Shown: one piece after another, positions 19,803 through 26,831 of the stretch
Layout: each line of letters begins with the position of its first letter
Position numbering within the stretch: position 1 is the stretch's first letter
Assembly (NCBI GenBank): GCA_016926875.1
Contig: JAFGNU010000073.1
Coordinates: 1-64,000 of the forward strand
DNA from: Anaerolineae bacterium
Lineage (GTDB): Bacteria; Chloroflexota; Anaerolineae; Aggregatilineales; Aggregatilineaceae
Length of the DNA: 64,000 bases
Direction of reading: 5' to 3'
Notes under the pieces: model-generated
Database searches by the model: none
What the model was told of the DNA's origin: nothing
What the model saw: the letters and a program-made list of their open reading frames with translations, nothing else
Program-made: the position numbers and the translations under genes

Positions 19803-21860
19803 CTATAGAGAAGGGGGACGCACCAACCGAAACCCGAAGTGGTCGTTCCGAGAAGCCGGATGGTAGAGGTCGCGGGACACGCAGCGCGCGAAGTCTCGAT
19901 TGAAGAACCACGCCCCGCCGCGCACCACCCGCGAGGCGTCACTGTCCCCGTCCTCACGCCCATCGTCCGCCCGGTAGGGATACGCCTGGTATAACGTGCT
20001 GGTCCATTCCCACACGTTCCCGCTCATATCCAGCGCCCCCACCCACGACGCGCCCCCTGTCCGCTGTTCCGGGCCAACGGGTGCCGTTCCGCCCTCACAA
20101 CCAGACGTATTTGCCTGTTCACAGGTTGGTGCCTCGTTTCCCCAGGGATACAGCCACCCATCCGGTCCCCGCGCGGCGTACTCCCATTCCGCTTCGGTTG
20201 GCAAACGCCCGCCTACCCACTCACTGTAAGCCCTGGCCCCGTACCACGACACCTCTACCACCGGGTGATCCTCATAGCCTGCGTCCGCTGCCCACGTTCC
20301 CCCCTGCTGGTGAATGCGCACATAGTCGCTGTCAGCCTCGAGCCAAGTTGTTCCGCCTTCCGACTGGTTGCCCTGCGCGTTCAGAAAGGCCGCGTACTGC
20401 GCGTTGGTCACTTCGTACCGGCTGATCCAGAACGGCTCTTCAAAGCACTGCTCATTGTCTTCGACATCTTCGCCCATCTCAAAACAGCCCGCAGGCACCA
20501 GCACCATCTCCACGCCGTCGAATGTCTGCACCACCGGCTCCCAGTCATCGTTGCCCCCCTCGAATGTGCGCGCCCGGTCCAGCGCGGCTTGCCGCGGGTC
20601 GGGGGTTGTGGTGGGCGTGCTGGTGGGAGTAGAAGTATATGTTGAGGTGGCAGTGGCTGTCGCCGTGCTGGTTGGTGTATGCGTGAACGTGGGTGTACTA
20701 CTTGGCGTAGCGGTTGCTGTTAGCGTGGGCGTGGCTGAAGAGGTATTGGTGGGCGTGCTGGTTGGCGTCGGCGTGACCGTCGGCGTGAACGTGGGTGTAT
20801 CGCTGGGCGTGGCAGTAGCGGTCGGTGTGGGTGTGGCTGAAGGCGTATCGCTGGGCGTCGGCGTGAATGTCCACATCGTCGCCGTGAGCGTCTGGAACAC
20901 TACCGCCATCGCAGCATCATAGGTCAGCGTCAGGTTGGGCGTCGGCAGCGGGGTATCCGTCGCCGTTGGCGTATATGAGGGCGTATAGGTCCACAACGCC
21001 GCCGTCGCGCTGGCATCCTGGTCCGCCGCGACTTTGCTGGCCGTTACATCCATCCACACCTGGGTTTCCAGCGGCAAGGTAGGCGTTGGGGTGCTGGTCG
21101 GCGGGGGTGTATCGGACGGGGTGAGCGTCTCGGTCGGGGTATCGGTAGCAGTGGCCGTTGCCGTTTCAGTCAACGTTGGCGTTTCGGTCGGCAGCGGGAT
21201 TTCGGCGGCTTCTTCCGTCCCGGCGGCGGCGACCGCTTTGGTCTGTTCCGGCGTGGTGTCCTCGCCGTCACCATCCCCCAGCACCCCGCTCAACGCGATC
21301 ACTATCGCCGCCAGCGCCAGCAGCGCGATCACCGCGCCAGCTACCCACAGGCCCCTTGCTGACCGTTCGGGCGGCTTATCCGGCACCGGCGGGCGGCTGA
21401 TCGGCTGAGGACTCTGCGGGGGCGGTGGCTTTGGCGGCACTTCGTCCAGCAGCCGGTGGGCCGATGCATACAGCCGCGTGATCGCGCCGGTATCCCGAAC
21501 TCCCCGCGACATATCGACGTAATGCGTGCGCCGCAGCAGCGCGGCCAGATCAGGTGGCACCGGGCCGGGATAGTTGGTTTTGGGACGCACGATCACGGGC
21601 AGCACCTGCTTGTGCAGTCGCAGCGCTTCGCGGTATTCCGACTGGCAGTAGGGCGAGGCCAGCGACTCGTTCGAGATCAGGTAAACGAACAGTTCACAGT
21701 CTGCCACCTGGGCCAGGATCGTCTGCCACCAGTCCACGCCGCCGTGAATATCGTCGTCAAACCAGACGCTGTCCGGCCCATACACGCGGCGCAGCAGCGG
21801 CACCAGCCCATCAATGAACTGGCGGTCTGCCCGGCTGTAGGAAATGAAAATACGCGCCAT
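19803..21860 (-). CDS. TIR domain-TM-Thr/Pro linker-FGE-like protein
   Basis: Start at ATG 21858-21860 ('[15 protein letters not shown]'), 685 residues; the ORF track's start adds 32 unlikely residues. Order: TIR domain (~3-115) with 'FISYSRAD', '[13 protein letters not shown]' and '[17 protein letters not shown]', where Glu75 matches the NAD-cleaving glutamate of TIR NADases; Pro-rich stretch; one membrane helix (~171-192); Thr/Pro/Ser-rich linker (~220-420); FGE-sulfatase/SUMF1-like domain (~445-685): '[12 protein letters not shown]', '[23 protein letters not shown]', '[11 protein letters not shown]', '[13 protein letters not shown]'. The two catalytic Cys of true FGE are replaced (Phe, Ala), so the domain probably binds rather than oxidises. 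TIR would be inside, FGE outside. A possible signalling or defence protein; see findings. Confidence 0.92.
20601..20873 (-). repeat. Low-complexity Thr/Pro codon repeat inside the TIR-FGE gene
   Basis: About 90 codons reading T, P, S, A in patterns such as 'TPTPTAT' and 'TSTPTSTP'. The DNA is GT-rich on the plus strand and imperfectly periodic, so slippage length change is possible. It encodes the extended linker between membrane helix and FGE domain; it is not a CRISPR or minisatellite array. Confidence 0.8.
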
Positions 21861-21882
21861 GATAGCCCCCTGAACCAGCGTG

Positions 21883-21896
21883 CGGACACCTGTCCG
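21883..21896. promoter_or_regulatory. Operator-like inverted repeat at the TIR-FGE promoter
   Basis: CGGACA-CC-TGTCCG, a 14-bp perfect dyad centred at about the predicted transcription start of the TIR-FGE gene and 23 bases before its ATG. Its position would let a bound dimer block initiation. The binding protein is unknown. Confidence 0.4.
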
Positions 21897-21898
21897 GT

Positions 21899-21927
21899 AG
21901 TATATATCGCGCCCGATTTGCCGCCAA
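21899..21927 (-). promoter_or_regulatory. Promoter of the TIR-FGE gene
   Basis: TTGGCG, 17 bases, TATACT on the minus strand; predicted start near 21892, about 32 bases before the ATG at 21860. It lies after the stop of the relic ORF, so the full-length gene has its own promoter. Confidence 0.5.
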
Positions 21928-21964
21928 GCAACACAACAACACCGCCCCCACGGCAATCAGCGCT

Positions 21965-22292: not shown

Positions 22293-24272
22293 TCAGCACA
22301 GGTCGACGTACTCCATGCGCACGCGGTCCGCCTGCTCGATAGCCAGGATGTCGTTCAGGATTTCGGTGGTCAGCGCGGCTTTAAACTCCGCGTCTTTTTG
22401 CGACCACGTGCGCGACTTGATCTCGATATAACGCGCCTCGACCTGTGGTTCCACGATCCGGTCCAGGTTCGCATAAAACAACACGCCCTTATACAGGATA
22501 TGCCAGCGCAGCCGGTCCTTTTGCACTTCACATTCCCGCCGGGCCTGGAAATATTCGCGGTAAAAGCGCAGCGGGCGGTCGGCGGGCGCGATAAAGCGCG
22601 AACGCGACAGCAGCACCGCCTCGTCAAACTCGCGCTCTTTTTCGGGGATGGTGTACGTCAGCCGGGTGCGCACGCTGACCAGTTGACCGTCTTCGCTGAC
22701 CAAGTCATCCTCGCGGTAGCGAACGCGCCCCTGCTGCTCGTCCTCGAACAGGAAATAGGTGTCGTACTGCCGGTAATGCTTGTGCCGCACGATCTCCACG
22801 CTCGGATGGTCCAGCAGGCGCCGGATCAGGTCTTCGCCGTCGCCGTTGATCCGCGCCTTGACCTGAATCTCAAAGCTCTCTTCCTGCTCCAGGCCGCCAA
22901 TCGCCACCAGCTTATTCAGTACGTTGCCCTCGCGCGCAATCAGGAAGGCGTCGATCCGGCGTGCATAGTCTGCCGCCTCCCGCCGAATCTGGTCCGCGTC
23001 CAGCGTCAGCAGGGACCGGTCACGCATCAACCACTGGCCGTTGACCATCACGTGCTGCACGTCCGATGCCTGGCTGGCATACACCACCTGTGAATAAGCG
23101 CTGTTCGGATCGCGCTCAAACTTCGGCGCGTTGTGCAGCGGGTCGCGGTCCAGCACGATCAGATCAGCCCGCTTGCCCACGTCCAGGCTGCCGGTGATAT
23201 CGCCCAGGTGCATCGCCTCTGCGCCCCAGCGGGTTGCCATCAGCAGCGCATCTTTGGCGGGCAGCACCATCGGGTCGTAAGTTGCACCCTTGATCAGCAG
23301 CGCCGCCAGCCGCATCTCCTCGAACATATCCAGGTCATTGTTACTGGCCGGGCCGTCCGTGCCGACGCTCAGCCGGACACCGCGTTCCAACATCTCCTTG
23401 ATCGGCGCAATGCCGCTGGCCAGCTTCAGGTTGCTGGTGGGATTATGCGCCACCGCTACCCGGTGCTTCGCCAGCGCGATGATCTCCTCCGAATCGATGT
23501 GCACACAGTGCGCCGCGATCGTCTTGGCCCGGAAGACGCCCAGGTCTGCCACGCGATGCACCACGCGCTTCTGGTATTTCTCCCAGCTTTCATCCGCTTC
23601 CAGGCGCGTTTCGGAGATGTGAATCTGGAGCGGCACATCAAACTCAACCGCCAGATCGGCGCACGCCTGCAAAATCTCGTCCGTGCAGGTATACGGCGCG
23701 TGCGGCGCCACCGACGGCACGATCAGCGGGTGATCTTTCCACTCCTCGATAAAGCGGCGTGTATAGGCCAGGCTGTCTTCGTAGCTGTCCGCGTCCGGCG
23801 ATGGGAACTTGAGCACCGTTTGCCCGCACACGGCCCGCAGCCCGGCCTCGGCAATCGCGGCGGCGACATCGGCCTCATAGTAGTACATATCCACCGCCAG
23901 CGTCGTCCCGCCCCGGATCATTTCGGCGCAGGCCAATTGAGTCCCCAAGCGGCAGTACTCCGGGCTGACGAATTCGCGCTCGGTCGGCATCATGTAGCCC
24001 ATCAGCCACACGTCCAGCCGCAGGTCATCCGCCATCCCGCGCAGCAGCGTCATCGCCATGTGGGTATGCGTGTTTACCAGGCCCGGCAGCACAAACTGGT
24101 CCCGGCAGTCGATCACCTCGTCCGCCTCGTATTCGGCCCGGATGACCTCGGCGGGACCAACCGCCGCGATGCTGTCTCCCTGGATCGCAACCGCGCCGTC
24201 CGGGAACCGGTCCAGCGCCTTGTTCATTGTCAGAACCATACCACCAACAAGCAGCGTATCGACTTTCTTCAT
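22293..24272 (-). CDS. MtaD-type amidohydrolase (SAH/MTA deaminase-like) fused to a CYTH domain
   Basis: 659 residues; GGAAG precedes the ATG by about 9 bases. Residues 1-~445 are a complete amidohydrolase: metal site 'LVNTHTHMAMTLLRGMADDL' (His69, His71), 'APHAPYTCTDE', 'LQIHISETRLE', 'IAAHCVHID', 'AHNPTSNLKLASG', 'VGTDGPASNNDLDMF' and closing 'KRADLIVLD'. These match S-adenosylhomocysteine/5'-methylthioadenosine deaminases. From ~465 a second domain begins with 'ESFEIQVKARI', continues 'QYDTYFLFED', 'VRYRED', 'VRTRLTYT', and ends 'EARYIEIKSRTW': the CYTH (class IV cyclase/triphosphatase) pattern, with the second Glu of ExExK changed to Gln. Normal MtaD is ~430 residues, so this is a true fusion. 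Confidence 0.9.
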   Translation of the reverse strand: MKKVDTLLVGGMVLTMNKALDRFPDGAVAIQGDSIAAVGPAEVIRAEYEADEVIDCRDQFVLPGLVNTHTHMAMTLLRGMADDLRLDVWLMGYMMPTEREFVSPEYCRLGTQLACAEMIRGGTTLAVDMYYYEADVAAAIAEAGLRAVCGQTVLKFPSPDADSYEDSLAYTRRFIEEWKDHPLIVPSVAPHAPYTCTDEILQACADLAVEFDVPLQIHISETRLEADESWEKYQKRVVHRVADLGVFRAKTIAAHCVHIDSEEIIALAKHRVAVAHNPTSNLKLASGIAPIKEMLERGVRLSVGTDGPASNNDLDMFEEMRLAALLIKGATYDPMVLPAKDALLMATRWGAEAMHLGDITGSLDVGKRADLIVLDRDPLHNAPKFERDPNSAYSQVVYASQASDVQHVMVNGQWLMRDRSLLTLDADQIRREAADYARRIDAFLIAREGNVLNKLVAIGGLEQEESFEIQVKARINGDGEDLIRRLLDHPSVEIVRHKHYRQYDTYFLFEDEQQGRVRYREDDLVSEDGQLVSVRTRLTYTIPEKEREFDEAVLLSRSRFIAPADRPLRFYREYFQARRECEVQKDRLRWHILYKGVLFYANLDRIVEPQVEARYIEIKSRTWSQKDAEFKAALTTEILNDILAIEQADRVRMEYVDLC

Positions 24273-24665: not shown

Positions 24666-26831
24666 ATGCAGCTATTTCGACGGGATGTACTGCGTTCCCT
24701 GGAAGCCGGGATTGTCGGCCTGCTCCTGATCCAGACGGTGCGCCATGTGTTCGCTACACTCTATGCGCACGCCAGCAGCGCCGACCTGGTTGAGCGTGTG
24801 CCCAACCCGGACACGCTGAGCGATGTGCCGGGCGTGGTCAAGCTGGCGACCACCCAGGGCGAAATCGCCACCCTGATCGCGCTGCTGTTGCTGCCCCTGC
24901 TGGCGCTGATCATCAGCCGGTGGGGGATCAGCTTCCCACTGACCGTGATCCTGGCCGCGTTGGGCCGTTCGATGGCGCTCCAGGTGCCGGACCTCGAAGT
25001 CCCGATGGCGTCACTGGCTGCCGGGGCCGGGCTGCTCTACCTAGCACTGGTGATTGCCCGCCGCCCGGCGCACTTCCCTACCGTGATCCTGGCCGGGTTT
25101 GCCGCCGATCAGGTGATCCGCGCGCTGGGCGATACATATGATCGCACCTGGCAAAGCGACTACGTGGTCAGGTTCGCAGATGGTTTTGAACCGGACATGG
25201 GCCTGCTGGTATCGATCACCGCCGTGCTGCTGATCCTGCTCTCGATTGTGCTGTGGTATATCGAGCGGCGGCAGGAACTGCGCGAACGGCAGGAAGAAGG
25301 CTACGCGCCGCCTCTGCGCGGGTTGCTAAATACCTGGGGCGGGCTGGCGCTGGGCGGTGTTTTCTTTATCGAATTTACGCTGCTCTCGCTGCCCAATGCC
25401 GTTGCGCGCTGGTCAGGTACGGATTACGCCGGGCTGGTGCCCTGGCTGCTGGCAGCTACCACTCTGCCCCTGGTGCCCGAAGTACGCGACGTTGCGCGCC
25501 GCTTTGCGGGCATGTTCGACAGCGCGTGGCGCGGTTGGTTCTGGGTGCTGCTGATCTCGCTGCTGCTGGTCATCGGGCGCGGCTACGACGGCTTGCTGGC
25601 GGGCGTGGCGCTCGTCTTTGCGCAGTTCTTTGTCGGCCTGACGCTCTGGTGGCTGGTTCAAACCGGCCTGCCCCGCCGCAACTTTACCGGCCTGACGGTG
25701 CTGTTCGCGGTGGTGACGTTTGCCGTGCTGGCAACCGGCGACTACTTCACCTATGACTACGCCTATGTGCGTAACCTGTCCGATCCATATCAAAACGTAG
25801 GCGACGTGCTGCGCGCCTTTCGGGATATGGGTCTGGGCCTGACCCTGATCGCGGTGCTGCTGCTCTCGATCCCGATGATCCTGGCGCGGCGGCGCATCCC
25901 CTGGCGCGGCGGTCCTGCCGGGCATACGCTGCTAGTGCTGGCGCTGGTGCTGGGCGTGAGCTTCGCCGGGGCGGCCATCGTGGGTAACACCGTTGTTCGC
26001 CGCCCACCAAACCCGGACTGTATGCGCGTGGCAACCTACAACATTCACGGTGGATATTCGCAGTTCTTTGATTCCAACCTGGACGGCGTGGCCGAGATCA
26101 TCGAACTGGCCGGAGCGGATGTCGTGCTGCTGCAAGAAGTGGATGCCGGGCGGCTGGTTAGCTTTGGCATCGATCAACCGTATTGGCTGGCGCGCCGGTT
26201 GCAGATGGAGCACACTTTCTTCCCGCAAAACGAAGCGCTGCAAGGTCTGGCCGTGCTCAGCCGCGTACCGATTGTGGATATGGAGGGCCTGCTGCTGCCC
26301 AGCGAGGGCAACCAGGCGGCGGTGATGCATGTCACGCTTGATCCGGAGCGGCTGGTTGCAGACCCGCTGGCCGACGAGATCGGGAACCTGCACATTTACA
26401 ACGCCTGGCTGGGCTTCCGCGAAGCCGAACGCGACGGCTCCCCGGTCCCCGAAGGCGAGCAGGATCAAAACCGCCAGCTCAGCACCATGCTCAACTGGCT
26501 CGCCGGACAGCACGGTCCCGCCTGGACCGACCGGATCATGCTCGGCGGCACGTTTAACCATGGGCCGGACTCGCCGCTGTATAAAAAGCTGCGCATGGAC
26601 AACCTGGACAATCCCGCCATCAAAGACCCATTCGCCGGGCTGCGCGCCGAAAACGCAAAAACGCTCTACCTGGTGGACGGCACCACCGCGCGCTACGATT
26701 ACCTGTGGATTTTTAACCTGCCGTTCACCGGCGTGCTGGTCGATGACAGCGCCGAAGCGGCCAATACGTCCGATCACCGCCCGGCCATTGTTGCGATCAA
26801 CCGCCGCGAGGGGGTCACCTGCCAGCCGTAG
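24666..26831 (+). CDS. Polytopic membrane protein with C-terminal endonuclease/exonuclease/phosphatase (EEP) domain
   Basis: 721 residues. Residues 1-~450 hold about ten membrane segments. The last ~270 residues are an EEP domain: 'MRVATYNIHGGYSQFFD', 'ADVVLLQEVDAG', 'QGLAVLSRVPIVD', 'RIMLGGTFNHGPDSPLY' and 'TSDHRPAIVA'. The family's G-G-D-F-N has Thr in place of the Asp, while the metal Glu (LQEVD) and final Asp-His (SDH) remain, so activity may be reduced or changed. The EEP domain is likely outside the membrane, as in other membrane-linked members that act on lipids or phosphodiesters. GAGG is 11 bases before the ATG. The gene is alone, divergent from the deaminase-CYTH gene. Confidence 0.87.
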   Translation: MQLFRRDVLRSLEAGIVGLLLIQTVRHVFATLYAHASSADLVERVPNPDTLSDVPGVVKLATTQGEIATLIALLLLPLLALIISRWGISFPLTVILAALGRSMALQVPDLEVPMASLAAGAGLLYLALVIARRPAHFPTVILAGFAADQVIRALGDTYDRTWQSDYVVRFADGFEPDMGLLVSITAVLLILLSIVLWYIERRQELRERQEEGYAPPLRGLLNTWGGLALGGVFFIEFTLLSLPNAVARWSGTDYAGLVPWLLAATTLPLVPEVRDVARRFAGMFDSAWRGWFWVLLISLLLVIGRGYDGLLAGVALVFAQFFVGLTLWWLVQTGLPRRNFTGLTVLFAVVTFAVLATGDYFTYDYAYVRNLSDPYQNVGDVLRAFRDMGLGLTLIAVLLLSIPMILARRRIPWRGGPAGHTLLVLALVLGVSFAGAAIVGNTVVRRPPNPDCMRVATYNIHGGYSQFFDSNLDGVAEIIELAGADVVLLQEVDAGRLVSFGIDQPYWLARRLQMEHTFFPQNEALQGLAVLSRVPIVDMEGLLLPSEGNQAAVMHVTLDPERLVADPLADEIGNLHIYNAWLGFREAERDGSPVPEGEQDQNRQLSTMLNWLAGQHGPAWTDRIMLGGTFNHGPDSPLYKKLRMDNLDNPAIKDPFAGLRAENAKTLYLVDGTTARYDYLWIFNLPFTGVLVDDSAEAANTSDHRPAIVAINRREGVTCQP

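Follow-up and report, generated by a model that had tools for sequence, protein, structure and literature searches.

An adenosine-type deaminase of Chloroflexota fused to a CYTH-fold domain with a remodelled tunnel

Architecture of the fused protein

The window, that is, the whole stretch of 64,000 nucleotides analysed here from an Anaerolineae bacterium (contig JAFGNU010000073.1), carries on its reverse strand an open reading frame of 659 codons that runs from an ATG start through to a stop and contains two domains in one frame (Table 1). A preliminary description based on the sequence had read this frame as an MtaD-type deaminase joined to a CYTH domain. The Pfam Amidohydro_1 match (252 bits), an hhalign comparison (E = 2e-8) and the fold matches described below bear out this reading. 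The AlphaFold2 model of the whole protein has a pLDDT of 90.7, with the strands of the CYTH part in TTM order.

Table 1. Features of the fused gene and its neighbours in the window
Feature	Position	Strand	Evidence
Fused ORF, 659 aa: MtaD-like deaminase and C-terminal CYTH-fold domain	22293..24272	(-)	Orthologous ORFs of similar length in relatives
Amidohydrolase (cog0402, MtaD/DadD-like), residues 1-440	22953..24272	(-)	Pfam Amidohydro_1, 252 bits; PRK09045, 458 bits; model match to 4f0r
HxH metal-ligand motif (H69, H71)	24060..24068	(-)	Invariant in 40-sequence alignment A1; 80-81/81 in wider set
CYTH/TTM-fold domain, residues ~455-655	22308..22910	(-)	hhalign probability 95.4, E = 2e-8; top matches in fold search
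E468-x-Q470-x-K472, in place of CYTH ExExK	22857..22871	(-)	Q in 40/40 fused, E in 24/24 comparison domains
R518-x-R520, predicted triphosphate-binding RxR, kept	22713..22721	(-)	40/40 fused; 24/24 and 20/24 comparison CYTH
K585-x-R587-x-R589-W590, conserved basic strand of the tunnel, with R589 in addition	22503..22520	(-)	Invariant in 40/40; R587 in 24/24 comparison domains
E617-x-K619, in place of terminal ExE; Glu retained for metal 1, Lys instead of Glu for metal 2	22416..22424	(-)	K in 40/40 fused, E in 24/24 comparison domains
Divergent EEP-type gene	24666..26831	(+)	
Neighbouring TIR/FGE-sulfatase gene	19803..21956	(-)	

The preliminary description had also conceded that a split gene or a sequencing error might mimic a fusion, and had proposed to look for the same architecture in other genomes. 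The fused frame is present in 53 of 61 relatives and in 89 of 400 Chloroflexota genomes, and the fragments that were checked (G202 and G446) stop at contig edges. We can therefore dismiss both artifacts.

The product of the gene divergent from the fused gene is hydrophobic over a long N-terminal stretch and has an endonuclease/exonuclease/phosphatase (EEP) domain at its C-terminus (PGAP2IP-like). Of the 25 loci compared, 16 have a gene of this type next to the fused gene. The other neighbour listed in Table 1 codes for a protein with a TIR domain at its N-terminus and an FGE-sulfatase domain at its C-terminus; between them lie a hydrophobic segment and a long low-complexity linker rich in Thr and Pro.

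Distribution of the fusion

The genomes with the fused frame belong to Anaerolineae, the class of the source organism, and to five families of other classes (f32, f42, f68, f71 and f89). Every match to the deaminase part that scores at least 468 bits lies in a frame of at least 659 residues, and unfused paralogues score at most 305 bits; the only intermediate match is G202, which is cut by contig ends. The genomes searched contain neither an unfused orthologue of the deaminase part nor a free copy of the C-terminal domain. The pairwise distances of the two domains correlate with a coefficient of 0.89, and the rate of change in the C-terminal part is only 1.23 times that of the enzyme part; the two domains co-evolve.

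Searches of mobile elements gave no match to the C-terminal domain on plasmids and no match on viral contigs. The plasmid collection holds 130 records with deaminase homologues, all of them unfused, and none spans 80% of the fusion. The fusion is likely restricted to Chloroflexota. This statement can be no stronger, since the scan of contigs from all species used patterns derived from the query alone, and these patterns missed even members outside its own class. Within the phylum, the C-terminal domain appears to be conserved across most of one class and in further families.

The deaminase domain

The N-terminal domain, at 252 bits, lies above the Pfam cut-off for Amidohydro_1 (25 bits) and contains the expected metal-binding and catalytic residues: H69, H71, H218, E221, H255 and D306 are invariant in the 40-sequence alignment A1 and occur in 80-81 of the 81 sequences of a wider set. 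In the PDB this domain matches the MTA/SAH deaminase 4f0r from C. violaceum (E = 4e-99, ~40% identity), and its model matches the same structure with a TM-score of 0.96 normalized by the target. Fold and catalytic residues are common to the cog0402 deaminases that act on MTA, SAH or adenosine (4f0r/4f0s from C. violaceum, 4dyk/4gbd from P. aeruginosa, and TM0936). In contrast to the fused protein, these enzymes have no C-terminal CYTH domain.

Among the matches listed, none reaches its NCBIfam equivalog cut-off (PRK09045, 458 of 540; PRK15493, 320 of 779; PRK07228, 362 of 522), and so the substrate cannot be named by sequence alone and the protein is classed only as MtaD-like. The model PRK07228 stands for the 5'-deoxyadenosine deaminase DadD of the M. 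jannaschii type, to which the fused protein is related (361.7 bits), yet below the curated cut-off of 522.

The genome of the source organism also encodes an SAH hydrolase, an MTA phosphorylase together with a PunA-type (inosine/guanosine) phosphorylase, and two classical adenosine deaminases. With these enzymes present, there is no support for SAH or MTA being an orphan compound left to the fused enzyme alone. The sole by-product for which this genome has no obvious dedicated enzyme is 5'-deoxyadenosine. Since the other candidate substrates have dedicated enzymes, 5'-deoxyadenosine is a reasonable candidate for the main substrate. Deamination of 5'-deoxyadenosine is known from M. jannaschii, and routes from MTA to inosine-type compounds are known from P. 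aeruginosa (PMC6302742). In two other lineages (L105 and L121) the fused gene adjoins an inosine/guanosine phosphorylase gene, which fits an inosine-type product.

Other neighbours recur locally. In three lineages a gene for a PunA-type phosphorylase is followed by one for a likely membrane protein of ~260-276 residues (L164:1520-3239, L105:5664-7333 and L121:2479-4207); the two copies of the latter that were scanned gave no Pfam match. In two genomes outside the class of the source organism, a dephospho-CoA kinase gene overlaps or directly follows the fused gene (L110:6442-7095 and L112:5383-6015; the domain scan covered the L110 copy). This arrangement suggests an operon in these two genomes. 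Across the phylum, the compared loci show no conserved operon partner of the fused gene, and the neighbours differ by lineage (EEP protein, RNase III, CinA, or the dephospho-CoA kinase CoaE). Gene neighbourhood names no ligand for the CYTH-fold domain.

The C-terminal domain has the CYTH/TTM fold

From the window protein alone, the assignment of the C-terminal domain is weak: it scores 15.1 bits against PF01928 (E = 0.021), where the gathering cut-off is 23.2. Its relatives make the case. PF01928 matches 25 of 40 orthologous C-termini with a best E-value of 6.4e-7, and at least eight fused relatives lie above the gathering cut-off with scores of up to 31.1 bits. By hhalign we also compared the family profile with the CYTH domains of 24 further CYTH proteins found in the phylum; most of these proteins are short single-domain frames, and two have ~520 residues. 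This comparison gave a probability of 95.4 and an E-value of 2e-8 across 170 columns. The same profile shows no similarity to the VTC domain (PF09359; probability 4%), which excludes membership in that family despite an ExK motif common to both.

Searching the PDB with the single sequence of the C-terminus returned one weak and unrelated match, and a profile search with the C-terminal family returned unrelated weak matches only. Since these searches were uninformative, a comparison at the level of the fold was required. The AlphaFold2 model of the C-terminal domain (mean pLDDT 89.8) has the TTM strand order and the topology of an eight-stranded tunnel. This is the fold of CYTH/TTM hydrolases and class IV cyclases such as SaTTM, ygiF, AtTTM3, ThTPase and CyaB. 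The top Foldseek matches are indeed TTMs, namely SaTTM (7nsf/7ns9), CyaB (2fjt), ThTPase and AtTTM3 (E = 2.6e-7; TM-score by target up to 0.73). Profiles, relatives above the Pfam cut-off and the fold together make the CYTH assignment firm. The claim of the preliminary description that the last ~190 residues form a CYTH domain, which it had exposed to profile comparison and structure prediction, thus holds once relatives are included.

The Mediator subunits Med18 and Med20 are also among the nearest fold matches. These proteins share the tunnel fold, but they are eukaryotic structural subunits with no link to a deaminase. They represent non-catalytic TTM folds in which catalysis is believed to have been lost (PMC4641920). 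By analogy, the domain described here could be a degenerate CYTH domain kept only for folding or oligomerisation. We consider such a scaffold very unlikely, because the charged residues that follow an inward-pointing pattern (positions i and i+2 of each strand) rank with the best conserved in the domain, whereas in a scaffold they would be free to drift.

The tunnel keeps one half of its active site

We mapped the tunnel sites by a profile alignment of 40 fused proteins with the 24 comparison domains. E468, K472, R518, R520, K585, R587, D604 and E617 are kept in all 40 fused proteins, so that the RxR, the KxR, the Asp, the metal-1 Glu and the first-motif Lys are the same as in CYTH/TTM enzymes. 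The differences from these enzymes are equally consistent: ExQxK stands for ExExK, ExK stands for ExE, the Lys of LTxK is gone, and the tunnel is basic. Position 559, a Glu in 21 of 24 comparison domains, is Arg in 26 and Gln in 14 of the fused proteins. Position 561 (Glu in 20 of 24) has become hydrophobic, mostly Ile, and position 541 (Lys in 21 of 24) is Thr in 37 of 40. The charge summed over 17 tunnel positions averages +5.3 (4 to 6) in the fused proteins versus -0.4 (-1 to 1) in CYTH domains found elsewhere in the phylum. Y500, F507, F509 and W623 are conserved aromatic residues of the domain.

These changes are consistent in at least two class-level groups. In the wider set of 81 sequences, Q470 and K619 each occur in 80, with one sequence deviating at each position. 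Odd residues also occur at several catalytic positions that are invariant elsewhere, which suggests misaligned or damaged rows. Position 541 varies in this set (T/L/I/V/M), and Lys is absent among the residues listed.

Previous work on AtTTM3 and ygiF has shown that the equivalent of E617, invariant in characterised TTMs, binds the substrate metal (site 1), and has assigned the equivalents of E468, Q470 and K619 to the catalytic metal site 2 (Martinez et al., PMC4641920). In ygiF this catalytic site consists of Glu4, Glu6 and Glu162; mutation of Glu6 or Glu160 impairs activity, and TTM hydrolases need the metal-2 site (PMC4641920). By these assignments, the substrate half of the tunnel is kept in the fused proteins (E617 with R518, R520, K585 and R587, 40/40), and the catalytic half, with the ExExK motif and the acidic patch of site 2, is lost (Q470, K619 and R/Q559).

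The preliminary description had noticed the Gln at the second Glu of ExExK and had suggested that the CYTH part may bind instead of catalyse. The Gln is real, and the sequence pattern supports binding more strongly than this residue alone would, since four further positions of the acidic patch or its support are changed as well, invariantly or nearly so. As for the metal-binding acids to be sought in the tunnel, the profile alignment recovers the metal-1 residue E617 and also E468, and finds the metal-2 patch replaced. A class of CYTH proteins in Anaerolineae (L135, L146 and L148) has NxExK as its first motif and lacks the first Glu, not the second. The genome of the source organism encodes a separate CYTH protein (L166:2560-3177) with intact ExExK and ExE motifs (ETEVK...EVE), which is usable as an internal control.

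What the domain may do

The preliminary description had suggested that the fusion may couple two removals, with the deaminase clearing SAH and MTA while the CYTH domain hydrolyses triphosphate by-products. The fusion itself would suit this coupling, but we find the proposal hardly credible, given that every member has lost the hydrolytic metal-2 site to other residues and that the SAH hydrolase, the MTA phosphorylase, the adenosine deaminases and an intact CYTH protein are encoded elsewhere in the genome.

Loss of site 2 is nevertheless no proof of inactivity, since VTC-type polymerases are active transferases with the same ExK and no acidic patch. The ExK in the last strand is found in all nine VTC-domain proteins of the phylum, and Vtc4p is known to function without the acidic patch (PMC4641920). 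The C-terminal domain could accordingly be a second active enzyme that performs a one-metal phosphotransfer or some other unknown reaction on a triphosphate, which the invariance of many tunnel residues would fit. The fusion would then join two consecutive or opposing steps. This reading seems unlikely to us. The profile comparison with VTC fails, and the surrounding genes point to no obvious phosphorylated partner molecule. The VTC domain also differs in its first motif, which is RxDxK-like.

A tunnel with a charge of about +5 might instead dock polyP or RNA 5' ends, in which case it would serve to localise the enzyme and not to regulate it. Links to polyP are known for CYTH-CHAD proteins, and in L105 a frame that reads as ppk1-like lies four genes downstream of the fused gene. 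This ppk-like neighbour occurs at one locus only, however, and the conserved aromatic residues hint at a ligand that is partly organic, which makes docking improbable.

Since site 1 is kept and site 2 is lost, the domain is best read as a ligand sensor. We infer, with about an even chance of being right, that the CYTH-derived domain built into this adenosine-type deaminase binds a triphosphate without hydrolysing it and tunes the deaminase in cis. The deaminase would act on adenosine, 5'-deoxyadenosine, MTA or SAH, take off the 6-amino group and release inosine-type products. The basic tunnel residues and the single Glu would hold a triphosphate-Mg complex at site 1, and with the water-activating site of three Glu residues gone, the ligand would be held and not cleaved. 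The most likely ligand would be ATP or another organic triphosphate, the organic part of which Y500, F507, F509 and W623 may contact. Occupancy of the tunnel would then modulate the deaminase. The more specific view that the domain is an allosteric sensor of ATP or another triphosphate which dispenses with metal site 2, a CYTH fold put to use as a regulatory ligand-binding module and fixed in two groups of Chloroflexota, is plausible but tentative.

Conclusions

To our knowledge, nearly all described roles of CYTH/TTM domains are those of triphosphatases, cyclases or polymerases. In the open-access papers searched we found none that treats an amidohydrolase together with CYTH, or a deaminase fusion together with a CYTH domain, and no description of this fusion, in agreement with the preliminary description. 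CYTH fusions described elsewhere involve HD, exopolyphosphatase, nucleotidyl kinase and CHAD domains, with no deaminase listed (PMC8233210). The domain of the window protein falls below the Pfam cut-off despite its apparent conservation, which marks a gap in annotation. If the proposed sensor function is true, this family would exemplify the conversion of a TTM into a sensor in nature, with the triphosphate site kept, the catalytic site rebuilt, and the domain always tethered to a deaminase. The removal of adenosine-type by-products would then be tied to a triphosphate signal.
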